A stretch of 40,226 nucleotides of DNA from positions 1 to 40,226 of IMG/VR virus record IMGVR_UViG_3300043773_001779. The stretch is one strand, 5' to 3'. The stretch is from a virus. Below, one piece after another: positions 6,615 through 17,510 of this stretch. The position numbers and the translations under genes were made by a program. The stretch's first letter is position 1. Every line of letters starts with the position of its first letter. The notes below the pieces were generated by a model. It did not search any database and was not told the DNA's origin. It saw only the letters and a list, made by a program, of their open reading frames with translations.

Positions 6615-8969
6615 ATGGCCAACGCTTTCGTAAAAGCCCAATTCATGGATCCGCCTGGGGGCCCGAACAGCGCCTCCCCCATTGGCGCTGTCAAAGCGGG
6701 GCAGGGGATCATCATCGCAGCAGACGGCACGATCAGCACTGCCGCTAGCGGTGGAACTGTCACCGACATTGTTTGCTCCAACGGGATCCAGGGCGGTGGC
6801 CAAGGACCTCAAGTTTTTCTTTCTCTCTTAGCACCAGCAGGCACAGCTCTGGGCGGTGTGAGAACAATCGCAGGAAGTGGGATTTCGATTGATTCGGACG
6901 GGATCATTCGAAACGTTAATAACACCTCCATCAGCAGTGCCGTAGGACTGAACGTCACGGATTTTGGCGCTGGTGCATTTAGTATCGATCTCAAACCGGC
7001 CGGCGCTACGGCCCCACTCCTCGGGGGTGTGTTTATTCCCTCCGGCTCTGGTCTCACAGTCGGACCCACAGGTGCTTTGGCTGTAGGTCCTGCCACCGTC
7101 ACCACACTTGGCGGTATTAAACCTGGGACCGGCGTAACGGTTTCTCCCGACGGCACCCTCAGCGCCACTGGAACAGGTGGCACGATCACCGGCGTTGGCG
7201 CCGGAACCGGTCTCGGTGGTGGTGGAGTTACCGGAGCGGTCACTCTCTTCCTTCGTCCCGCTACGACGACCACCATAGGCGGTGTTTATCCTGGCGAGAA
7301 CGTCACAGTCGACCCGGACGGTCGCCTCAACGTTTCTGACGCAGCTCTCGGGGTTATCTCTGTTGCTGGAACTTTGCCTGTCGTTATCACAGGCACGCCA
7401 ACCAACCCGATCGTTGGTGTCAATCCAGCGACAACCGCTGCAACTGGCATCGTTCAACTGAACAGCGCGATCAACTCCACAAGTGAGGCTCTCGCGGCGA
7501 CATCGCTCGCCGTCAAGACTGTCGCCGACATCGCCAACGCGGCACTTCCGCGTGCCGGCGGGACAATGTCCGGCGCCATCACCTTCACCGGTGGTCAAAC
7601 ATTCCCGGGCACCATTCCAGCGAGCTCTTTCACCCAGACAGGTGGATTGCTGGTTGGTGACACCTCACCTCCTGGCTACGCTCAACTCCCTGTTGGCTCA
7701 AACGGCCAGGTCTTAGTCGCTAACTCTAGCGCCCCATTAGGCATTGAGTGGCAGACGAGTCTTTCTAACCCGACTCTTCAAAATGTCACCGCTAACGGCG
7801 CGACTACCAACATCGCGACAACATTCCAAGGTTCGGTTACTTTTGGTGAGGATAACCTCACAACAAGGCTGGACGGCCGCTCCATCAGTTTTTACACTAC
7901 CGGCACTGTCGATCCCTTAATTAAGATTGACAACCAACCAGGAGGAAGCCAGGCGTTTTTGTTCGGGCCAGACTTCTTTATTCAGTCTCCTCCCGGCGGG
8001 ACAGCCGTACTACTCGGAAATCGTGTCCCCGCACAAGGTTCTCTGACGCTCAACGGCAACACTGCCTTGAACTTGGAGTTGAACGAGACTACCAAGGTTG
8101 TTCTCGACTCAACCGGCTTCAGCGTCAACACCCCGTTCAAAGCCTCAAACCTAAGTTATCCAACGGCCGACGGCGCAGCTGGGGCTGCTCTGGTTACTAA
8201 TGGGTCCGGTACACTGAGTTTCAGCACTGGTTTCCTCCAGAAAACGGGTGGCACAATGACCGGGGACATCACGTTCTCCGGCACTCAGACTTTCCCTGGT
8301 GTTCTTGTTAACGGGTCTATTGGAGGTAGTGGGGCGATCGTTGTTGGTGGGACGCCATCCAACCCTCTGATCTCTGCAAGCACTGCCACAACTTCAGCAC
8401 TTGGTGTGGTTCAGCCTGACGGCACGACGATCACCATCAACGGAAGCGGCGTGATTTCAGCCGCTGGGTCCGGGTCATCTCTACCACTTGCCGGTGGTAC
8501 GATGACCGGCAATATCGTGTTCAATGCCGGTCAAACCTTCCCCGGCACGATCGCCTCTTCACTCCTCGATGTCACGGGCGACATTGTCTACGCCTCCGCC
8601 ACAAACACTCCCGCCTCGCTGCCGATCGGCGCCGCTGGTACGATCCTCGCCGTCAACTCCGGCCTCCCGGCCTGGAGAACGTCAGCTCAGCTCGGTCTGC
8701 TCACATCTGCCACCGCTGCCACCACCTACGCCCCTCTCGACTCGCCGGCTTTCACAGGCCCGATCACCGTCACCTCCGGTGGGTCATCTGGGTCAAATGC
8801 GATGACCATCAGTGGCGGAAACTTGGTTCTCGCGACCAGCTTCACGCCGCCGAGCTCCGCTTCCACCGGCAGTGTGGGTGAGCTCGCTTGGGACAACTCT
8901 GGATACCTCTACTTCTGCTACGCCCCGAATACTTGGGGTCGCGTTCAAATCGACCTGACTCCGTTCTGA
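6615..8969 (+). CDS. Long repeat tail fibre protein, anchor module B
   Basis: This is a 784-residue protein. The N-terminus (KAQFMDPPGGPN, then GAVKAGQGIIIAADGTI) is module B, also present in the two collagen fibres at 12798 and 14429. Residues about 50-260 hold four shaft units with GG-L-PAT-T-GG-V and PDG turns. Further on come three copies of a GGTMTG-I-F-GQTFPG element (near 195, 415 and 495), a motif widespread in phage side-tail fibres. The end (GELAWDNSGYLYFCYAPNTW) is a short GxxxWDxxGYLY segment often seen at fibre tips. No peptidase S74-type self-cleaving chaperone is visible. GAAGAG just before the ATG can serve as ribosome binding site. Confidence 0.82.
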   Translation: MANAFVKAQFMDPPGGPNSASPIGAVKAGQGIIIAADGTISTAASGGTVTDIVCSNGIQGGGQGPQVFLSLLAPAGTALGGVRTIAGSGISIDSDGIIRNVNNTSISSAVGLNVTDFGAGAFSIDLKPAGATAPLLGGVFIPSGSGLTVGPTGALAVGPATVTTLGGIKPGTGVTVSPDGTLSATGTGGTITGVGAGTGLGGGGVTGAVTLFLRPATTTTIGGVYPGENVTVDPDGRLNVSDAALGVISVAGTLPVVITGTPTNPIVGVNPATTAATGIVQLNSAINSTSEALAATSLAVKTVADIANAALPRAGGTMSGAITFTGGQTFPGTIPASSFTQTGGLLVGDTSPPGYAQLPVGSNGQVLVANSSAPLGIEWQTSLSNPTLQNVTANGATTNIATTFQGSVTFGEDNLTTRLDGRSISFYTTGTVDPLIKIDNQPGGSQAFLFGPDFFIQSPPGGTAVLLGNRVPAQGSLTLNGNTALNLELNETTKVVLDSTGFSVNTPFKASNLSYPTADGAAGAALVTNGSGTLSFSTGFLQKTGGTMTGDITFSGTQTFPGVLVNGSIGGSGAIVVGGTPSNPLISASTATTSALGVVQPDGTTITINGSGVISAAGSGSSLPLAGGTMTGNIVFNAGQTFPGTIASSLLDVTGDIVYASATNTPASLPIGAAGTILAVNSGLPAWRTSAQLGLLTSATAATTYAPLDSPAFTGPITVTSGGSSGSNAMTISGGNLVLATSFTPPSSASTGSVGELAWDNSGYLYFCYAPNTWGRVQIDLTPF

Positions 8970-8975
8970 TAACTG

Positions 8976-11906
8976 ATGGCTCAGCTAAACTTCCCTGACA
9001 ATCCCATCGACGGGCAACTCTACCCGAATCCGTGTCCCGCGGGGGTGACTCAGTACAAGTGGGACGTGGCTTCAGGTATTTGGCGCATCGTGGGTGTTGC
9101 GACAGGAGTCACACCTGGAACTTTCGGTGATAACATCACGGTTGGTCAGTTTACTGTAGATGTCGCTGGAAAAATCACAGCAGCGGACAATATTCCTATT
9201 CGTGACGCAACTGTAAATAGCTCGGGTGTTGTCCGACTTAATGACAGCGCGTCGAGTCTCAGCATCACGCAAGCACTCACCGCTCGTGTCGGCAAATCAC
9301 TTCAGGATCAGATCGGCAATCTTAACAACTGCATCGTTCCGGATCACGCGAACATTGTCTCCGCTCTCAATGATCTTCAGAATCAGAACATCGAGCTTCA
9401 AACGAATGCGATGATCTGGTGCGGCTATTATAATGCCCTCGAAGGAGACATCAGTTTTGTTAGCATCACCGGCCAACGACTCGGCTATGTAGTCGGTCAA
9501 GAACTCCCTCTGCCATCTGCGGGCAACGGAGGAGACTTCTTCATCGTCACCGAATCCGGCAACCCGTATGCGGCAGGAGATTTCAACGCGCCTGACAAAT
9601 TCATTGAAGCCGGAAACTGGATCATCTCTGAAGCAGTCAGGTGGTCCGAAGTCAAAGCGAAAGGGAATCTGGCCGCTTCTGACATTTCCTGCTTCACACT
9701 TCCCCCTCTGACCGCCAACAACGTTCAAGGGGCGATCACTCAACTTTCGCAACTCATAAGAACCGGGGGTATTGGTGGCGCCACGATCAGCATCAATCCC
9801 CCCGCCAGCCCATATCAAGGCCAACTTTGGTGGGACAACGAACGGGGCTATTTCTACATTTACTATCGTGATCCCAATGGCGACCAGTGGGTCGAGATCG
9901 GTGGTGGCGGATCTGACGCGCTTCAAAGTGGTGGTGGTGGAATCGTTCTGCTTGAGACTGGGGTCGGTCTTCAAGGTGGTCCAATCACCTCTGAAGGAAA
10001 GATTGCGTTGGTGCCGGCCACCAAAAACACCCTTGGAGGTTTCATTCCTGGACGTGGTCTGACCTATGAGGTCGCCACAGGTTTGACTGGGGTTAGTCTT
10101 TCCGCGAATTATAACAGCGCCAGTCCAGATGTCGCATTCAGTCAAGCCGGAGCGAATGCTCTCGCGACATCTATTCAAGCACTTTCAGGAGCCAACGTTC
10201 TTGCCGGAACTTACAATGCTCAAACAGGCCTCCTAGTTTACGCAACACCGGCGGGTGTGGCTAAAGGATTCAAAGCAAACGACCCGCTTCCTGTCGCAAG
10301 CAGGACGATCGACAACTATTATGTCATTGTCACTGTCGGGGGAAACTTCGGCCCCGACGGAGTCCAGCCCTCGGGAGCTGGGGACTGGTGGCTTTGCCAG
10401 GCCGACGACAACACCCTCCCCTCGTGGTTTCTCATCGATTTTGAGAACCTTGGCGCCGCCGCTGAAAACGTCACCGTCAATCGGATCTCCGGAATCGATT
10501 TTGCCAGCAACGTTCAAACCGCTTTAGAGGCGATTGAACTGCAGGTACAGGGTCGCATAGAATTTGCTCAATCGACAACCGAAGGTCTCACTGTCACCGT
10601 TTCTGACCCGGACCCCAATGACAATGACGGCACACGTCTTGAAATTGGAGTCAATTCCGCGTCATTGACTCAGAAGGGAATCGTCCAACTCACGAGTGAT
10701 GTAACCGGCAATTCCGAGTCTCTGGCAATTACACAACTCGCCGCCTCTGGGCTAAATAGCAAAATTAGCGCCATCGCGGGCGCCAACGTTCTCGCTGGAA
10801 CCTACAACGCAAATACGGGTCGTGTCACTTCCGTTACTCCGGCTGGTGCCTCTAATGATTTCATTGTTGGTATCAACGCCCCAGACGCTGCGAAAGTTAG
10901 AGATAACTACTATTTGATTGTGACCGTTGGCGGCGGTTTCGGACCTCCGGGAGCGTCGCTCCCTCCAGGTGGAGTGCAACCTGGAGACTGGTTCATTGTA
11001 GAAAATGAACCCACATTCGCCCCTACGTGGGTGACCATCGATTTTGACAACCGCACGACAACGGCTTCGCTGGTTGCTGTCACCCCGATCCCCAATCTTT
11101 CTGCGACTGACGTTCAAAACGCCCTGCTGCAGATTGAGGACCAAGTTGATAACACCATCACAGGCGTTCTCAGTCAGAATGGCGGTATCACGGTTGAAAT
11201 CACTCCTGCAAATGCATCCTTCGGATTCAATTCCAAACTCACACTGAATCCCGCCACTCCAACAGGCATCGGTGGAGTCTTTGTCGCCCCTAACAACGGC
11301 CTCATCCTAACGCAAGCCGGTGGACTGTCAGTGTCCCCGGCTACTAAAACCGTTGTCGGTGGAGTTAAGGTCGGGTCCGGTCTTGACATCAGCGGTGACG
11401 GCACGATTAGTTTGGGGTCCGGAGTTGGCACGGTAACGTCAGTCAATGCCTCTGGAGGCGACACTGGCATGACTTTCAGTGGCGGTCCGATTCAAACTTT
11501 TGGCACGCTCACACTCGATGGCACACTGAATGTCACAAGCGGGGGAACTGGGGCAAACAGCGCAACCGGCGCTCTTACCAACCTCCTGCCAAGTCAGTCT
11601 GGAAACGCTGGCAAAGTTTTGACGACCAATGGAAGCACGGTTTCATGGGGTGCAGGCGGGGGTGGAGGCGTTCAGTCTATTACGTTCCAATCCCCGCTCA
11701 CCGGCGGAACTATATCTAACACAGGGACCGTTGGAATCCAAGTCGCTAATGCTTCCCAAGATGGGGTGATGACGGCCGCTTACGCATCTCAGGTCGATAA
11801 ACTGCCTTTGAATGTCGGCACTAACTCCTCAGGAAACAGGTTCGTTTCCAGCTCGACGCCAACACCGTCCGATGGTGTTAACGGAGATATTTGGTACGTC
11901 GTATGA
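8976..11906 (+). CDS. Very long repeat tail fibre protein, anchor module A
   Basis: This is a 976-residue protein, the longest fibre in the window. Module A is at residues 1-40 (NFPDNPIDGQLYPNP, QYKWD). The body alternates beta shaft units (GVGLQGGPITSEGKIALVPAT) with a larger domain present three times. Two clear copies sit at about residues 404-500 and 601-700 (each ANVLAGTYNA, then DNYY-IVTVGG, then W--IDF). A more divergent copy lies at about 145-225 (WCGYYNALEGDI, GNGGDFFIVTES, GNWIISEA). VQ-AL-AIE-QV helices follow these copies. The C-terminus reads TPTPSDGVNGDIWYVV. It is probably a main shaft component, translated with the next gene through an ATGA overlap. Confidence 0.8.
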   Translation: MAQLNFPDNPIDGQLYPNPCPAGVTQYKWDVASGIWRIVGVATGVTPGTFGDNITVGQFTVDVAGKITAADNIPIRDATVNSSGVVRLNDSASSLSITQALTARVGKSLQDQIGNLNNCIVPDHANIVSALNDLQNQNIELQTNAMIWCGYYNALEGDISFVSITGQRLGYVVGQELPLPSAGNGGDFFIVTESGNPYAAGDFNAPDKFIEAGNWIISEAVRWSEVKAKGNLAASDISCFTLPPLTANNVQGAITQLSQLIRTGGIGGATISINPPASPYQGQLWWDNERGYFYIYYRDPNGDQWVEIGGGGSDALQSGGGGIVLLETGVGLQGGPITSEGKIALVPATKNTLGGFIPGRGLTYEVATGLTGVSLSANYNSASPDVAFSQAGANALATSIQALSGANVLAGTYNAQTGLLVYATPAGVAKGFKANDPLPVASRTIDNYYVIVTVGGNFGPDGVQPSGAGDWWLCQADDNTLPSWFLIDFENLGAAAENVTVNRISGIDFASNVQTALEAIELQVQGRIEFAQSTTEGLTVTVSDPDPNDNDGTRLEIGVNSASLTQKGIVQLTSDVTGNSESLAITQLAASGLNSKISAIAGANVLAGTYNANTGRVTSVTPAGASNDFIVGINAPDAAKVRDNYYLIVTVGGGFGPPGASLPPGGVQPGDWFIVENEPTFAPTWVTIDFDNRTTTASLVAVTPIPNLSATDVQNALLQIEDQVDNTITGVLSQNGGITVEITPANASFGFNSKLTLNPATPTGIGGVFVAPNNGLILTQAGGLSVSPATKTVVGGVKVGSGLDISGDGTISLGSGVGTVTSVNASGGDTGMTFSGGPIQTFGTLTLDGTLNVTSGGTGANSATGALTNLLPSQSGNAGKVLTTNGSTVSWGAGGGGGVQSITFQSPLTGGTISNTGTVGIQVANASQDGVMTAAYASQVDKLPLNVGTNSSGNRFVSSSTPTPSDGVNGDIWYVV

Positions 11907-12760
11907 CAATTAGTGTAAAAGACGGCGGACAATGGAAATCCGCTAAACAGATCTTTGTCAAAGATGGCGGAGTGTGGAAAGAAGTTCAACAGCTTTATGT
12001 AAAAGATGTCGGATCTTGGAAGCAAAGTTATGTAAATAGACCCCCATACCAGGACAGTGTAACAATCACAGTCGCCGGAACTTGGACGGTCCCAGCGGGA
12101 GTGACGACCGTACGAGTCACTTGTTTTGGGGGCGGCTCTTCGGCCTCTGGAAACACATCTTTCGGGGGAAAAACTAAGGCGACCTTCAATGTGAGTCCTG
12201 GGGAAACTTTCAGAGTCGACTTCTTTAGCGGAGGGAGCTCATGGGACGTGGGCTCGCGAGGCGGGCAGTCTTCAGGTGGTGGGTCGGCTGCGGCCATTGG
12301 TTTAAATACTGGGAGTACTCTCACACAGTCCACCCTTTACATGATCGCTGGCGGTGGTGGTGGATGTTCCCCATCTGGAGCGGGTGGCAACGGCGGAGGC
12401 AGTTCTGGAGGAAGCGGGGGTGGAAGCAACTCAGGTAAGGGCGGAACACAAAATTCAGGCGGTGCTGGAGGCGCGGCTTCAGGCGGCAACTCCGACCAAG
12501 ACGGAAACCCAGGAGGAGCTCTTTCGGGTGGCTCAGGCGTCACCGCAAGACCCGGTGGTTGCGGAAGCGGTGGTGGATCTGCTCCGGGCGGCGGAGCGGG
12601 CTGGTTTGGGGGCGGAGGAGTTTCTGGAGACTGCACCGGCGGGAACGCTGGCGGCGGTGGTGGCTCATCTAGACTTCAGATCCCGGGGGACCGTTCACCT
12701 CAAGAATTGGAAAATTCTCAAGGAACAAGTTCCGAACTCAAAGTGTTCATTGAGTATTGA
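11903..12760 (+). CDS. Glycine-rich adhesin-like protein with VKDGG-W repeats
   Basis: This is a 285-residue protein. The start at 11903 (ATGA overlapping the previous TGA) is preferred over an ATG at 11891 because it places the repeats at the N-terminus. Residues 3-44 are three 14-residue repeats of the form VKDGG-WK. From residue 55 the sequence matches the phage glycine-rich domain pattern (TVAGTWTVPAGVTTVRVTCFGGG). It then becomes extremely Gly/Ser-rich, with many GGGG runs up to about residue 260. In phage S16, a Gly-rich adhesin forms packed polyglycine-II helices at the fibre tip, and a similar fold is plausible here. It probably caps or binds the 976-residue fibre encoded just upstream. 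Confidence 0.75.
   Translation: MTISVKDGGQWKSAKQIFVKDGGVWKEVQQLYVKDVGSWKQSYVNRPPYQDSVTITVAGTWTVPAGVTTVRVTCFGGGSSASGNTSFGGKTKATFNVSPGETFRVDFFSGGSSWDVGSRGGQSSGGGSAAAIGLNTGSTLTQSTLYMIAGGGGGCSPSGAGGNGGGSSGGSGGGSNSGKGGTQNSGGAGGAASGGNSDQDGNPGGALSGGSGVTARPGGCGSGGGSAPGGGAGWFGGGGVSGDCTGGNAGGGGGSSRLQIPGDRSPQELENSQGTSSELKVFIEY
11909..12034 (+). repeat. Three 42-base VKDGG-WK repeats
   Basis: Residues 3-44 of the glycine-rich protein form three 14-residue units: VKDGGQWK, VKDGGVWK and VKDVGSWK at matching positions. It is probably a short beta-repeat connecting to the upstream fibre. Confidence 0.88.
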
Positions 12761-12797: not shown

Positions 12798-13775
12798 ATG
12801 GCTCTTACCAAGGCGCAATTGATGGATGTGCCAGGTGGTCCTGGTGTGGTTGGCGCTGTCAAGGCTGGCAGTGGAATCACGATCGGGCCTGATGGCAGCA
12901 TCTCAGTAGGCTCTCCCTCTGGTGGGGCGGTTACACGTGTTCTCGCGGGAACGGGTATTGCAGTGACCCCGACATCCGGATATGGAGACGTCACCGTGTC
13001 CGTGGATCCCACTACCACGGTCACAAAGATCATCGCGGGAACCTCGATCACCCTCTCGCCTTCGAGCGGTCTTGGCGATGTCACAATCAGCTCGGCTGGT
13101 GGCGCCGCCGGGCCTCCGGGCCCTCCTGGACCAGGTGGATCTCCGGGAAGCAACGGTGGACCCGGTCCTCAAGGTCCTCCCGGACCCCCAGGCCCTCCGG
13201 GACCAGTCGGTCCAGGACTTGTGGGACTTCAGTCTGCCACATATGATATCTCCGGTACTTTCACAGTTCCAGCCGGCGTCACAACTCTGACCGTGTCGAT
13301 GACAGGCGGTGGTGGCGGTGGTGGAAATGGATACACAGTGGGTCCAACATCATTCTTTGTCGGTGGCGGTGGTGGTTCCGGGGGAGCGATCTATGGCCAA
13401 TCGTTCTCCGTAACTTCGGGTCAAGTGATCCCAGTCACGGTTGGTCAAGGTGGTATTGGCGGAGCTTTGGGTTCCTCTGGAGACCCAAGTTCGTTCGGTC
13501 CACTCACAGTGACAGGTGGCTCTTGGACACCACTCAGCAATGCGACTCCCACATCCCCAGGCATCGGCTCCCCTGCAGGTTCGCCGGACGGCAACCCCGG
13601 GGCGTCAGGAAGTCCTATTGTGACCTCCGATCCCAGTGCCTTCTCTCTCGGTGGTGCTTCCGGCATCAATGAGCTTGGTCAGCGCGGTGGTGGTGGAAAT
13701 GGCGGCAGTTCGTCATACACCACTGGACAATCTGGACAACCTGGTCGGGTTTACATCACCTGGACCTACGAATAA
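12798..13775 (+). CDS. Collagen-like fibre with glycine-rich head, anchor module B
   Basis: This is a 325-residue protein in three parts. Module B is at residues 1-35 (TKAQLMDVPGGPGVVGAVKA, then PDGSI) and is almost identical in the 307-residue paralogue at 14429. Two GTGIAVTP / GTSITLSP beta units follow. About 12 Gly-X-Y triplets come next (bases 13110-13214), many being GPP, the triplet that collagen prolyl-4-hydroxylases modify. The C-terminal 185 residues are a glycine-rich domain (TFTVPAGVTTLTVSMTGGGG onward). It has its own GGGTAAAA motif 37 nt upstream, and the hydroxylase gene begins 17 bases after its stop. The role is inferred as a trimeric adhesin fibre. Confidence 0.85.
   Translation: MALTKAQLMDVPGGPGVVGAVKAGSGITIGPDGSISVGSPSGGAVTRVLAGTGIAVTPTSGYGDVTVSVDPTTTVTKIIAGTSITLSPSSGLGDVTISSAGGAAGPPGPPGPGGSPGSNGGPGPQGPPGPPGPPGPVGPGLVGLQSATYDISGTFTVPAGVTTLTVSMTGGGGGGGNGYTVGPTSFFVGGGGGSGGAIYGQSFSVTSGQVIPVTVGQGGIGGALGSSGDPSSFGPLTVTGGSWTPLSNATPTSPGIGSPAGSPDGNPGASGSPIVTSDPSAFSLGGASGINELGQRGGGGNGGSSSYTTGQSGQPGRVYITWTYE
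13110..13214 (+). repeat. Collagen-like Gly-X-Y repeat, about 12 triplets
   Basis: It begins [12 protein letters not shown] and ends [12 protein letters not shown]. It is one of two collagen stalks flanking the P4H-like gene. Confidence 0.95.
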
Positions 13776-13792
13776 GCAAATCACCTTCATCA

Positions 13793-14404
13793 ATGGATAA
13801 ACTAGTCCAGCAGATTAAAGTTCTGTCCAAGACCGAACTTCAGGAAATCAATTCCATCATTGACTCTTTCAGTGATCGGTTTACGCAGTCAACTGTCTTT
13901 ACGAACGATGACTCGGGTAATTCAATCCTTGACGCGAGTTACCGTACCAGTTGGGGCACGGGCATCGAACCTGGAAGTGGTTTAGAGCAGAAGATTCACT
14001 CCGCGATGGACCGCGGACTTGTAGAGTACAGAAAGAGACTCGTGGAATATCACGAGATGTTTCAATACTGGCCCGTTCCATTCTCGACTGAAACTTTCTG
14101 TGGGAGGGAAGACATTCAAGTTCTTCAGTATTCCCCTGGACAGGAGTATGTGTTCCATCACGATCAGTCTGACTATATCAACAACAGCGCTTATTACAGA
14201 ACTCTCTCCACGATTTTGTATCTAAACGATGACTTTGATGGAGGCGGCACCGCATTCCCTCACAAGACATTCAAACCAAAGGCGGGTCACGCTTTGTTCT
14301 TCCCCTCGAACTGGTGCTACCCCCACTCCGGACAGAAAGTTATCTCGGGGTCAAAACGTGTTGCGGTCACTTGGTGGTACTGCATCCGAGAAAAAGAGGG
14401 GTAA
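13793..14404 (+). CDS. Prolyl-4-hydroxylase-like 2OG-Fe(II) dioxygenase
   Basis: This is a 203-residue protein with the complete active site of the family. The iron ligands are H122 and D124 (in EYVFHHDQSD) and H178 (in YPHSGQ). A basic residue at K188/R189 should bind 2-oxoglutarate. The strand LSTILYLNDDFDGGGTAFP and the GHALFFPSNW segment are characteristic of the P4H subgroup. Such enzymes hydroxylate proline in peptides using O2, 2-oxoglutarate and Fe(II). The gene lies exactly between two collagen-like fibre genes (12798, 14429), which makes their Gly-X-Pro triplets the obvious candidate substrates; this is inference. A host protein target is the alternative. The stop TAA is inside the next GGGTAAAA motif. 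Confidence 0.88.
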   Translation: MDKLVQQIKVLSKTELQEINSIIDSFSDRFTQSTVFTNDDSGNSILDASYRTSWGTGIEPGSGLEQKIHSAMDRGLVEYRKRLVEYHEMFQYWPVPFSTETFCGREDIQVLQYSPGQEYVFHHDQSDYINNSAYYRTLSTILYLNDDFDGGGTAFPHKTFKPKAGHALFFPSNWCYPHSGQKVISGSKRVAVTWWYCIREKEG

Positions 14405-14406
14405 AA
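14399..14406 (+). promoter_or_regulatory. GGGTAAAA motif (candidate late promoter)
   Basis: The hydroxylase stop TAA is inside the motif. It lies 30 nt before the second collagen fibre gene. Confidence 0.55.
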
Positions 14407-14428
14407 TCACCGAAAGCACTATTGGCAT

Positions 14429-15352
14429 ATGGCTCTGAACATTGCCCAACTCATGGACGTTCCGGACGGTCCCGGTGTCGTTGGGGCGATACGGGCTGGT
14501 TCTGGAATAATCCTATCTCCTGACGGTCAGGTTTCAATCGACCCCTCTTCCACTGTGGTGAAAATCACTGCGGGCAGCGGAATCTCATTGAATCCGACTT
14601 CAGGCGAAGGCGCCGTAACTGTTGGCGTGAACTCCACTCTAACAGTAACTCGTCTGATTCAGGGCACAAATGTTCTCCTCGTTCCCGCAACTGGTGTGGG
14701 GAACGTCACCGTGGCCTACAATGGCCCCGCCGGCGGGCCTGGACCCACAGGACCACAAGGTCCGAATGGATCACCTGGCAGCCCCGGACCTCAAGGCCCT
14801 CAGGGGCCTCCGGGCCCTCCGGGGCCTCCGGGACCCCCAGCTCCTCCTGCACCTCCAGGAAGCAGAACATTTTACTCGAGTGAGAATTGGACTGTTCCGA
14901 CGGGCATCACTCAGTTTAAGATTTCTGCCATTGGCGGAGGTGGTGGAGGCGGAGGGTGCTCCATCTTCAACGGCGCCGGCGGTGGTGGCGGAGGACAGGT
15001 GTATCGTCAACCAGTGGGCATCCCACCGGGAACCCGAAATATCGACGTCACAGTCGGTGGTGGAGCCGGTGGTGGATGCAATGACGCTGGGCCTGGTGGA
15101 CCGACCTCTTTCGGCGGTTTCCTTACTTGCACCGGAGGCGGTGGTGGGCAGGGCGGTCAAGACGCCGGCGGCGGTGACGGCGGATCCCCCAACGGCAACC
15201 CCCGCAGTGGCACCGGAGGAGGAGGCGGTGGAGTCAATGAGCTGTCAGGTTACGGCGGTGGAGGCCCTGGACAGGGCATGCAGCCGGGCTCGCGCAAACC
15301 TCCAGGCGTTCCAGGTCAAAACGGTTTGATGATCGTAACCTGGGGACAGTAA
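14429..15352 (+). CDS. Collagen-like fibre with glycine-rich head, anchor module B (second copy)
   Basis: This is a 307-residue paralogue of the gene at 12798. Module B opens it ([20 protein letters not shown]). Two PTSG/PATG beta units follow. Twelve Gly-X-Y triplets span bases 14732-14839, ending in four consecutive GPP and two APP triplets. The glycine-rich head begins with [20 protein letters not shown]. The head differs clearly from its paralogue in sequence but not in type (a CSIFNG loop and a [10 protein letters not shown] stretch with Cys), consistent with alternative receptor binding. Repeated GGC/GGA runs make the coding DNA strongly biased. A GGGTAAAA motif lies 30 nt upstream. Confidence 0.85.
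14732..14857 (+). repeat. Collagen-like Gly-X-Y repeat, 12 triplets plus two APP
   Basis: It includes four consecutive GPP triplets (bases 14804-14839). The two final APP triplets break the glycine register at the junction with the glycine-rich head. Confidence 0.95.
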
Positions 15353-15386: not shown

Positions 15387-16082
15387 ATGAAGCGAGGACT
15401 AGTTTCCCCGAATCAAATTCTGCGCTCTCAGCAAATCTGGCCGTTGCAAACCGTCCAAGGTGCTCCGCTTGGGGCGTACATTGTGGATGTGGTCCCCACT
15501 GGAACTGAGTACACGGTTGCACTGCCTCTATTCTGGGTTGATGTTCCTGATACCGCCCAAGGCTACACCTACTATTGGGACAGCGTTGCCGAGCTCGCTA
15601 TTGAAATCACACAGACTCTTTACTGGTTGACTGAAGATATTTCCTTCTTTGGCTCACAAGCGGAAGCGGTCAGGATTATTCCAGCAACGGGCACTCAGCC
15701 AGCTAACACGACCAATGAGCAACCTTTGGTTGGGGGAGAAGGTTCCGGTCTGTACTGGTATGACAATCAGTGGGTGAATTCTTGGTTCAGCCCGGAAGTT
15801 TACACCACAGTTCCTGAAGCTCAGGAATATCTTATTCAGCAAACCAATGTCGTGGCAGCAGGCGCCGTTAATACTCAGCTACGCGCATACTCCCTGATCC
15901 AAGTCCTGTCGGCTCCAGCACCCACAGATTTGATTAGCTTTGACTACGCTCCCATGAACATCGTGGATTATCAGGCGTTCATCGACGTTCAGGTAGCAGC
16001 TCGTGATGGCATTGTTAACGCCGCTACTTCTTTGAGCGACCTGTTTGACTTCAATCCCGCCGAACTGGACACAATTCCCTAA
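15387..16082 (+). CDS. Unknown protein closing the fibre cluster
   Basis: This is a 231-residue protein that I do not recognise. The N-terminal half is beta-rich with many aromatic residues (PLGAYIVDVVPTGTEY, YTYYWDSVAELAIEITQTLYWL). A middle WYDNQWVNSWFSPEVY stretch looks exposed. The C-terminal third is helical (VDYQAFIDVQVAARDGIVNAATSLSDLF). It is preceded by a GGGTAAAA motif 30 nt upstream and followed by a strong terminator, so it forms a one-gene late transcript at the end of the fibre block. A structural or fibre-associated role is likely from position only. Its stop overlaps the stop of the convergent hydroxylase gene. Confidence 0.65.
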   Translation: MKRGLVSPNQILRSQQIWPLQTVQGAPLGAYIVDVVPTGTEYTVALPLFWVDVPDTAQGYTYYWDSVAELAIEITQTLYWLTEDISFFGSQAEAVRIIPATGTQPANTTNEQPLVGGEGSGLYWYDNQWVNSWFSPEVYTTVPEAQEYLIQQTNVVAAGAVNTQLRAYSLIQVLSAPAPTDLISFDYAPMNIVDYQAFIDVQVAARDGIVNAATSLSDLFDFNPAELDTIP

Positions 16083-16702
16083 CGCCACCTCGGGCCAACA
16101 ACCCAACCCACAAGGGACTTTCGAGTCCCTTTTTTGATGGGACGGACCCGGTGAAGGGTCGTTGAGTCGAAAATTATGAGTAAGCCTTTCTGTTGGGGGA
16201 TCTCATACATCTCATTCTCATAATTCATCATCTGAAACTGTCCGCCTTCATATTCGGAGGAGTCACTCAGAATCAACGAGAATGACAATTTACGACAAGC
16301 ATCTGAGGGTTCGCCCTCATTCCAAAAAACGTTCTTGTTTGTGTTGGTGATGACTCCGTAGGTGTCTTTTGTCCCCATCGAATCGTCTCGATGCCAACCA
16401 TAGAATTGTCCAGGTCCATATGTGGTGTACTGCATGGACTCGTTGTCGATATGGCTGATATCAAATCTAAAATTCTCTCTATTTGCTCTCTGAACGTAGT
16501 AAAATAAAAGTGGACCAATCCAATGATTGGTTAATAGCCAATTGATGCTTGAATTTCGAATGTCCATCTGGACCTCTTGGTCCTCCTCTACTCCGACCTC
16601 CGCTTGAACTTTTTTCGATGCGCCCTCGTCCAACTGATTGTGGAGTGCAGTCAGAATAGACTCATCGATGAATGTTTGATACCAAACTGATTGAAATGCC
16701 AC
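16079..16702 (-). CDS. 2OG-Fe(II) hydroxylase, PKHD/PiuC-like
   Basis: This is a 207-residue protein read from a GTG start. The HxD motif is H104/D106 (QFYGWHRDD), the distal iron ligand is H184 (STTLHRVRPI) and the 2-oxoglutarate Arg is R194. The YEGGQFQ strand and the TTLHRV-P--KGTR-SLVGW end match the PKHD-type hydroxylase family, which includes PiuC/YbiX and is common in cyanophages. It is a different subfamily from the P4H at 13793, with very low sequence similarity outside the motifs. The substrate is unknown; phage fibre proteins or a host factor are both possible. It follows an HNH-like gene on the minus strand with an 18-base gap. Its last codons overlie the terminator of the opposite strand. 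Confidence 0.85.
   Translation of the reverse strand: MAFQSVWYQTFIDESILTALHNQLDEGASKKVQAEVGVEEDQEVQMDIRNSSINWLLTNHWIGPLLFYYVQRANRENFRFDISHIDNESMQYTTYGPGQFYGWHRDDSMGTKDTYGVITNTNKNVFWNEGEPSDACRKLSFSLILSDSSEYEGGQFQMMNYENEMYEIPQQKGLLIIFDSTTLHRVRPIKKGTRKSLVGWVVGPRWR
16112..16135 (+). terminator. Rho-independent terminator inside an antisense gene
   Basis: AAGGGACT-TTCG-AGTCCCTT followed by TTTT, 30 bases after the plus-strand stop at 16082. The same bases code for the C-terminus of the minus-strand hydroxylase. Confidence 0.88.
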
Positions 16703-16720: not shown

Positions 16721-17470
16721 TTAAAAATCGAGGTCGATCTCGTCATCCTCGACTGGCTTGAATGAACCAATCAATTCCACGGGGGTCGCATAGCCTGAGG
16801 CGCCTTTCGATCGGTTGGCGCTGGCACAAACAATGGCGAATCGGGCGTGTTGATGGTGGAACGCTTGCCACGCTTCCCATAGTATAGCATCTTTGAACTT
16901 CTTTGCACTAGGAGGGCCCTGTAGAGAGATCTCACAGTAGGTGAGCATGTTTTCTGAGATGAACTCGTCTGCGAGTTGCGAGAAAGGTTTTCCGTGGTGG
17001 TCGATGTCCACTCTCGCACCCTTTCTGAGAAGTCGACCCGTCACCAAACACTCGATCGGGTAACTCGTCGTCTTCTTGTAGTCCTTGAGTTGCTGCCCCA
17101 CCGCGTGTCGCATCGCCGCTTTCACCGCGTTGAAGTGTTTCTCCTCAAGTGTCGCCGTCGTGGCGATTTTCTTGGTGGGATAGAGATCCTCGACGAGTTT
17201 CGCCTTCGGAACCGGCTGCTTGGAGCCTCCGCCCTCAAGCGACAGCATCTTCACTCGCCGTCCACCGGCCATGTCCACGTAGCGGAGATACACCTGGGTG
17301 TCGACACGCTGTGCCAATTTCTCCCACCTTTCTGAAAGTCTGCACACGCGCAAAACAAACTCACGCGGCTCCCCGATGAGGCGCGAGTTTGCGCGGTTGT
17401 TGTCGATGATGCGGCTCACTCTCTTGGTGAATTCGCCTTTGTTTAGGCCGAGGGTTTCCCGAGCGGTCAT
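16721..17470 (-). CDS. HNH-like / DUF3223-type putative nuclease
   Basis: This is a 249-residue protein. The ATG at 17470 is preferred; the longer frame up to 17521 runs into the divergent gene's start. The N-terminal half is helical and basic (LNKGEFTKRVSRIIDNNRANSRL). Residues about 138-225 look like a nuclease-type core: CLVTGRLL (C141), VDIDHHGKPFSQLADEF (H158/H159), then W-AFHHQHARFAIVC and ASANRSKG (N219, K222). This D-H-H...N..K layout resembles HNH or DUF3223 proteins of plants and cyanophages, but the assignment is not firm. The C-terminus is an acidic DDEIDLDF tail, similar to SSB-type tails. It heads a two-gene minus-strand operon with the hydroxylase. Confidence 0.6.
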   Translation of the reverse strand: MTARETLGLNKGEFTKRVSRIIDNNRANSRLIGEPREFVLRVCRLSERWEKLAQRVDTQVYLRYVDMAGGRRVKMLSLEGGGSKQPVPKAKLVEDLYPTKKIATTATLEEKHFNAVKAAMRHAVGQQLKDYKKTTSYPIECLVTGRLLRKGARVDIDHHGKPFSQLADEFISENMLTYCEISLQGPPSAKKFKDAILWEAWQAFHHQHARFAIVCASANRSKGASGYATPVELIGSFKPVEDDEIDLDF

Positions 17471-17510
17471 CCGTCTACACTTGTACTGTAGAATTGTTAC
17501 CCACACCCAT
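17471..17510. promoter_or_regulatory. Divergent promoter region
   Basis: This 40-base gap separates the minus-strand HNH-like gene from the plus-strand 126-residue gene. On the minus strand GGGTAACA (17502 to 17495) lies 32 nt before ATG 17470, a one-base variant of the recurrent motif. On the plus strand TAGAAT (17489-17494) is a weak -10 candidate. Confidence 0.35.

Follow-up and report, generated by a model that had tools for sequence, protein, structure and literature searches.

Animal collagen is hardened by enzymes that add hydroxyl groups to proline. Here we consider a putative phage counterpart, found on a linear stretch of viral DNA of 40,226 nucleotides (IMG/VR record IMGVR_UViG_3300043773_001779, positions 1 to 40,226; the whole stretch is called the window below), in which a gene for a 2-oxoglutarate (2OG)- and Fe(II)-dependent oxygenase lies between two genes for collagen-like tail fibers. 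One of the closest described enzymes is the viral collagen prolyl hydroxylase (vCPH) of PBCV-1 (PDB 5c5t/5c5u), reportedly the subject of Eriksson et al. 1999, which is likewise a small single-domain viral 2OG-Fe(II) enzyme. It supplied the second and third best fold matches and the best single-sequence PDB match (5.7e-7), but it belongs to a virus of eukaryotic algae, whereas the phage enzyme, ~23% identical to it, is encoded between its putative fiber substrates. The prolyl-4-hydroxylase (P4H) of Bacillus anthracis (PDB 3itq/5hv0), also a single-domain protein and the best PDB profile match, hydroxylates collagen-like (PPG)n peptides with the Y position of the Gly-X-Y triplet favored (PMC8968730), but unlike the phage enzyme it is cellular. 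Animal collagen P4H (C-P4H; 7zsc) shares with the phage enzyme the catalytic fold and the proposed substrate, proline in the Y position (Y-Pro). It differs in being a holoenzyme with a peptide-binding domain and a protein disulfide isomerase (PDI) beta subunit, whereas the phage enzyme is a single domain of 203 residues with neither a peptide-binding nor a dimerization domain and no indication of a PDI partner.

Viral P4H (PBCV-1), bacterial P4H active toward collagen peptides (PMC8968730) and collagen-like phage fibers, in which a Gly-X-Y stalk stands between other fiber domains, are thus already known. In ordinary viral stalks proline is favored in X (X-Pro) and shows no Y preference, and bacteria and viruses have been said to lack Y-position prolyl hydroxylases and therefore any Y-Pro preference in their collagen-like proteins (PMC3368898); the fibers of the window, by contrast, have GPP repeats and a hydroxylase gene next to them. 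Cyanophages encode several 2OG oxygenases (phrog_61; P-SSM2 "PiuC", T4-GC 28), and the "PiuC" genes of P-SSM2 and ACG-2014f are orthologs of the window enzyme (44% and 40%); such cyanophage orthologs carry the annotation PiuC or ferrochelatase. In a Baltic Sea survey the viral use of P4HA was described as cryptic, and tail-fiber collagen was remarked on (PMC9301287). Our search of open-license papers found no enzyme-fiber linkage and no collagen-fiber role for cyanophage 2OG enzymes, and the association reported here appears to be undescribed in the papers searched.

The reading that we favor, with a probability of about 0.6, is that the phage encodes a prolyl hydroxylase that modifies the Y-position prolines of its own fibers. 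Gene order, conserved active-site residues, fold match, co-occurrence with Y-Pro and joint presence or absence in related phages are what the analysis shows; substrate, hydroxylated position, timing and stabilization are inferred. The virus is most likely a cyanophage of the S-CBWM1 lineage, judging from its primase, which shares 54% identity with the Synechococcus phage S-CBWM1 primase across 98% of its length, and from a similar gene order (tail fiber, polymerase and thymidylate-synthase homologs, tape measure protein, primase). The locus is made up of the following features:

12798-13775, + strand: fiber A, 325 residues, with the shared N-domain (residues ~1-100), a Gly-X-Y stalk and a Gly_rich_2 head
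13101-13217, + strand: collagen-like stalk of fiber A, 13 Gly-X-Y triplets, Y-Pro in 7
13254-13745, + strand: head of fiber A, PF21722 Gly_rich_2 (E 2.5e-10)
13793-14404, + strand: 2OG-Fe(II) oxygenase of the TF type (defined below), P4H-like by PF13640 match, active-site residues and fold, intact, 203 residues
14429-15352, + strand: fiber B, 307 residues, with N-domain, Gly-X-Y stalk and Gly_rich_2 head
14723-14839, + strand: collagen-like stalk of fiber B, 13 triplets, Y-Pro in 7
14885-15316, + strand: head of fiber B, PF21722 Gly_rich_2 (E 4.6e-11)

On the + strand, fiber A is followed after 17 bp by the enzyme and the enzyme after 24 bp by fiber B, and the two N-domains, identical at 55 of 100 positions, mark the fibers as paralogous; the N-domain had no match in a search of phage records. 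Each fiber has an uninterrupted Gly-X-Y run between other phage-fiber domains, as collagen-like tail fibers do. Proline fills X in 9 triplets of stalk A and 10 of stalk B, and lysine is absent from both stalks. A run of 13 triplets did not occur in any of 20,000 shuffles of either protein, although stalks this short miss the Pfam Collagen cut-off (19.1 of 27.2 bits for fiber A, no match for fiber B). The arrangement given in a preliminary description of this DNA, a 2OG-Fe(II) enzyme between two paralogous GPP-rich fibers, was therefore upheld. That description had also seen the two heads as differing as if swapped for host range. An exchange of unrelated heads between A and B was ruled out, since both match PF21722; with 71 of 188 alignment columns identical, the two have diverged within a single family.

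The enzyme matched PF13640 2OG-FeII_Oxy_3 (E 1e-16; 62 bits, cut-off 27) and the phrog_61 2OG-Fe(II) oxygenases (1.4e-35), and it has the double-stranded beta-helix and HxD...H triad of 2OG oxygenases. The iron-binding residues H122, D124 and H178 and, with them, K188 were invariant in both ortholog sets (9 and 28 sequences), so this part of the previously proposed active site held; R189, named with them, was invariant among the 28 but is not kept in ACG-2014f, one of the 9. K188 aligns with the 2OG-binding lysine of B. anthracis P4H. PHD-type enzymes use arginine rather than lysine for the 2OG carboxylate. Y119, three residues ahead of H122, was also invariant among the 28 orthologs and corresponds to the substrate-contacting tyrosine conserved in P4H (Tyr140 of the algal enzyme; PMC9676403), a weak point of likeness inasmuch as the second 2OG enzyme of the window has a tyrosine there too. 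Sequence encoding X-Pro-Gly, the substrate expected of a P4H, lies nearby. An AlphaFold2 model (pLDDT 85, pTM 0.83) returned prolyl hydroxylases alone as its 50 best PDB matches in Foldseek, among them algal P4H with a Ser-Pro peptide (3gze, E 3e-12), PBCV-1 vCPH (5c5t, 2e-11), PHD2, Pseudomonas P4H and human C-P4H-II. Likewise, a profile of the 28 orthologs retrieved only prolyl hydroxylases from PDB, B. anthracis P4H scoring best (7.6e-15). With TM-scores of only ~0.6 and identities of ~20%, these matches argue for the enzyme class and leave the substrate unfixed. Identity with PiuC/YbiX (PRK05467) was rejected despite the "PiuC" label on orthologs, the score being 25.5 bits against an NCBIfam equivalog cut-off of 143.

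To place the enzyme among its relatives, we defined its ortholog group, designated TF, by scores of ~240 bits or more against the profile; the next group scored below 90 bits in the fetched loci. After removal of identical sequences, the TF set comprised 52 loci extending 3 kb or more upstream. Two sets served for comparison: 144 loci of phage 2OG enzymes outside TF, and 107 viral loci retrieved by a pattern that fixes glycines only (random Gly-X-Y loci). GPPGPP occurred within 5 kb at 38 of the 52 TF loci, at 2 of the 144 (p 2e-26) and at 3 of the 107 (p 2e-21), p-values that overstate independence because most of the TF loci come from cyanophage contigs related to one another. Two consecutive Y-Pro triplets were found at 42/52, 2/144 and 13/107 loci, respectively. 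The corresponding counts for X-Pro (20/52, 7/144 and 63/107) and for Y-position lysine (Y-Lys; 13/52, 2/144 and 25/107) showed no enrichment at TF loci over random Gly-X-Y loci. The link is with Y-position proline, rather than with collagen-like sequence or with proline generally. The co-occurrence of P4H-like and Gly-X-Y fiber genes that the preliminary description had looked to was thus strongly borne out, in a form specific to Y-Pro and not to X-Pro. At TF loci with runs, Y-Pro accounted on average for 29% of triplets, against 5% in unbiased viral Gly-X-Y loci, and the difference persisted when TF enzymes were collapsed at 70% identity (p 3e-7), with GPPGPP present in 11 of the 19 resulting clusters. 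The nearest GPPGPP usually lay upstream of the TF enzyme, at a median of 1.6 kb and in the window at ~0.4 kb.

Motif counts replaced the counting of runs (6-8 triplets or more), which was missing interrupted repeats of the AGPPGPPGSPSTV type; some TF loci had seemed from plain run counts to lack collagen, and this was rejected on finding such repeats in them. Repeats of this kind, with a unit of ~13 residues, occur in fibers near the enzyme at loci L088, L095, L101, L113, L119 and L130, and standard Gly-X-Y run searches overlook them.

The lineage of the window was sampled independently through a neighboring gene (16721-17476), a choice blind to both enzyme and stalk, which gave 53 loci. Two of these (L194 and L217) had a TF enzyme, in both cases surrounded by Y-Pro stalks, so that with the window the association was 3 of 3, whereas GPPGPP was found at none of the 46 lineage loci without a TF enzyme. 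In the closest relatives (L165-L168), whose flanking genes are 78-88% identical to those of the window, two fibers share the same N-domain and continue into collar-like distal parts; these loci have no Gly-X-Y stalk and neither of the two 2OG genes. A joint arrival of stalk, head and enzyme would explain this most simply, and it is relative to these sister phages alone that the proposed change of head holds.

Whole phage records pointed the same way. A match to Collagen PF01391 was present in 5 of 5 records with a TF enzyme and in 2 of 13 without (18 records; exact p ~0.002, or 0.006 if the near-duplicates P-SSM2 and P-SSM5 are counted once), and in the two exceptions, S-CBWM1 and S-SCSM2R, Y was Gln or Thr, with almost no Y-Pro. 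Most collagen matches of the Prochlorococcus phage P-SSM2 fall at 19.5-26.0 kb, just ahead of the TF enzyme at 27.7 kb, the only one of nine PF13640 matches within the collagen cluster; its other 2OG genes lie elsewhere. The fibers there are PSSM2_023-028 and the ortholog beside them is PSSM2_031. P-SSM2 and 17 of 20 TF contigs contain a DNA pattern coding for GPPGPP, which had a single occurrence in 1 of 8 cyanophage genomes without the enzyme; ACG-2014f has a TF enzyme and no such site. In the reverse direction, an enzyme-blind search for AT-coded GPPGPPG gave ~80 usable contigs, of which ~13 carried a TF enzyme, far more than among random Gly-X-Y loci (0/118). The cellular genome collection held only three TF loci, one on a Pelagibacteraceae assembly contig (AG-345-F21) and two in an archaeal metagenome-assembled genome, and since all three look like phage contigs, the TF type appears to be confined to phages.

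The proposal that the phage brings its own prolyl hydroxylase for the Y-Pro of its fiber stalks thus gained support from fold, nearest sequences, co-occurrence and the phage's own lineage. We propose that the product of 13793-14404 is a small prolyl hydroxylase devoted to the tail fibers of the phage itself and most likely acting as a 4-hydroxylase. With Fe(II), O2 and 2OG it would, late in infection, hydroxylate the Y-position proline of Gly-X-Pro triplets in both stalks, either ahead of trimer folding or while it proceeds. The hydroxyproline would then stabilize a short collagen-like triple helix joining the shared N-domain, the presumed site of virion attachment, to a receptor-facing glycine-rich head, and stalk, head and enzyme probably entered the fiber locus as one cassette. 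If this is true, bacteriophages possess a collagen-maturation system, the cyanophage 2OG oxygenases now labeled PiuC or ferrochelatase gain a concrete substrate, and compact pairs of hydroxylase and substrate become available for producing hydroxylated collagen in bacteria. The phage subfamily is in any case tightly linked to fibers that show a Y-Pro preference, contrary to the general statement in PMC3368898, and cultured carriers such as P-SSM2 open the proposal to direct test.

Several observations weigh against a prolyl hydroxylase for Y-Pro stalks. PBCV-1 packages P4H in its particle, yet hydroxyproline was undetected in its virion proteins (PMC7019647). About 84% of viral GPPGPPG contigs, many of them fragments, had no TF enzyme. 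Among loci selected by pattern and exceeding 50% Y-Pro, just 1 of 82 was accompanied by a 2OG gene, and this was of a non-TF type. Since most GPP stalks occur without a TF enzyme, the notion that phage GPP stalks need this enzyme was rejected. The stalks beside the enzyme are also heterogeneous. Upstream sequence of 4 kb or more was available at 45 TF loci, of which 23 had Y-Pro-rich runs, 10 had mainly Y-Lys runs and 9 had other types, the remaining 3 (L101, L119 and L088) having no run, only interrupted GPPGPP-type repeats in the upstream fiber. A minority of TF loci (e.g., L096, L163, L007 and L143) are essentially without Y-Pro, several lacking it altogether, and a minority carry Lys- or Gln-type stalks. 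On the enzyme tree the stalk type clusters without a clean split and undergoes 13 or more changes; enzymes close to each other can stand beside different stalks.

This heterogeneity bears on the alternative that survives best, though we think it unlikely: that the enzyme hydroxylates the fibers at sites other than, or in addition to, stalk Y-Pro, such as Y-Lys, the glycine-rich head or other parts, with stalk and enzyme traveling together as one fiber cassette. Some TF members may indeed act on lysine or elsewhere. Nine of the 14 TF loci without GPPGPP have consecutive Y-Lys triplets, and Mimivirus L230, a viral collagen lysyl hydroxylase, is a precedent. In ACG-2014f, a glycosyltransferase gene adjoins that of the enzyme, and the stalk is rich in Thr at Y. 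Y-Lys was nonetheless rejected as the generally linked residue, being no more frequent at TF loci than at random Gly-X-Y loci by the counts above; moreover, the close fold and sequence matches are all prolyl hydroxylases, and neither stalk of the window contains lysine. A wider version of the favored reading, in which a phage family makes hydroxyproline-stabilized tail-fiber collagen with a dedicated enzyme, moved as a stalk-head-enzyme cassette, while some members perhaps hydroxylate lysine in Gly-X-Lys stalks, so that both classical collagen hydroxylations would be represented, is likewise doubtful.

Long Gly-X-Lys stalks adjoin TF enzymes at loci L004, L007, L127, L130, L143 and L145, mostly where GPPGPP is absent, and the enzymes there are possible lysyl-hydroxylase-like members. 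In ACG-2014f (L003, 6998-8594) the glycosyltransferase gene overlaps the TF enzyme gene, and in S-CBWM1 (L172, 4000-6053), whose genome has no PF13640 match, one follows the Gly-X-Y fiber; glycosylation of the fibers may take the place of hydroxylation or accompany it. Additional genes resembling oxygenases (a JmjC/cupin-like open reading frame [ORF] and other 2OG ORFs) lie directly beside the TF enzyme at L119 (7747-9597), L086 (10598-11140) and L126 (9349-10588), and L126 has two TF copies in tandem.

It is improbable that the enzyme instead targets a host protein or nucleic acid, through EF-Tu hydroxylation, alkylation repair or a use of 2OG that alters nitrogen signaling, and lies among fibers by chance or in a region tolerant of insertions. 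Roles of this sort have been proposed for cyanophage 2OG oxygenases, namely DNA repair for the Syn9 2OG genes beside uvsX/uvsY (PMC2984593) and nitrogen signaling (PMC3037559), and the fold matches include Pseudomonas P4H in complex with EF-Tu. The enzymes linked to uvsX/uvsY, however, form a different and distant group (full-length matches of 26-31% identity); this T4-GC 104 group is distinct from TF, and the sampled genomes that have it and lack TF mostly lack a collagen-family match. A chance location would, moreover, leave unexplained both the Y-Pro specificity, GPPGPP being almost absent from other phage 2OG loci, and the joint absence of stalk and enzyme in sister phages. Shared ancestry alone, with one cyanophage group happening to have both GPP-rich fibers and this gene, fits the relatedness of most TF contigs and the many GPP-stalk phages elsewhere without the gene, but it is the least likely account, because the signal survives collapse of the enzymes at 70% identity, recurs in the distant lineage of the window, where most relatives have neither feature, and in P-SSM2 singles out one of nine PF13640 matches.

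Two further features of the window touch on the same families:

4-147, + strand: third, distant collagen-like stalk, 16 triplets, X-Pro in 10, Y-Pro in 1, within a truncated ORF (1-543)
16079-16702, - strand: second 2OG-Fe(II) oxygenase, of another subgroup, with PRK05467/YbiX as best NCBIfam neighbor, under the cut-off

The third stalk, which had been grouped with those of fibers A and B, is genuine (Collagen PF01391, E 2.3e-7), but it lies ~13 kb from the enzyme and has almost no Y-Pro; it offers a contrast within the genome and is probably not a main substrate. Relatives of the second 2OG enzyme adjoin tail genes in S-SM2 and Bellamy, genomes in which there was no collagen-family match. Finally, the fiber upstream of the locus (11891-12760) has N-terminal VKDGGVWK-type repeats that recur in distant cyanophages, in a protein encoded ahead of the TF enzyme, at 9765-9893 of locus L088 and 7930-8058 of locus L095.

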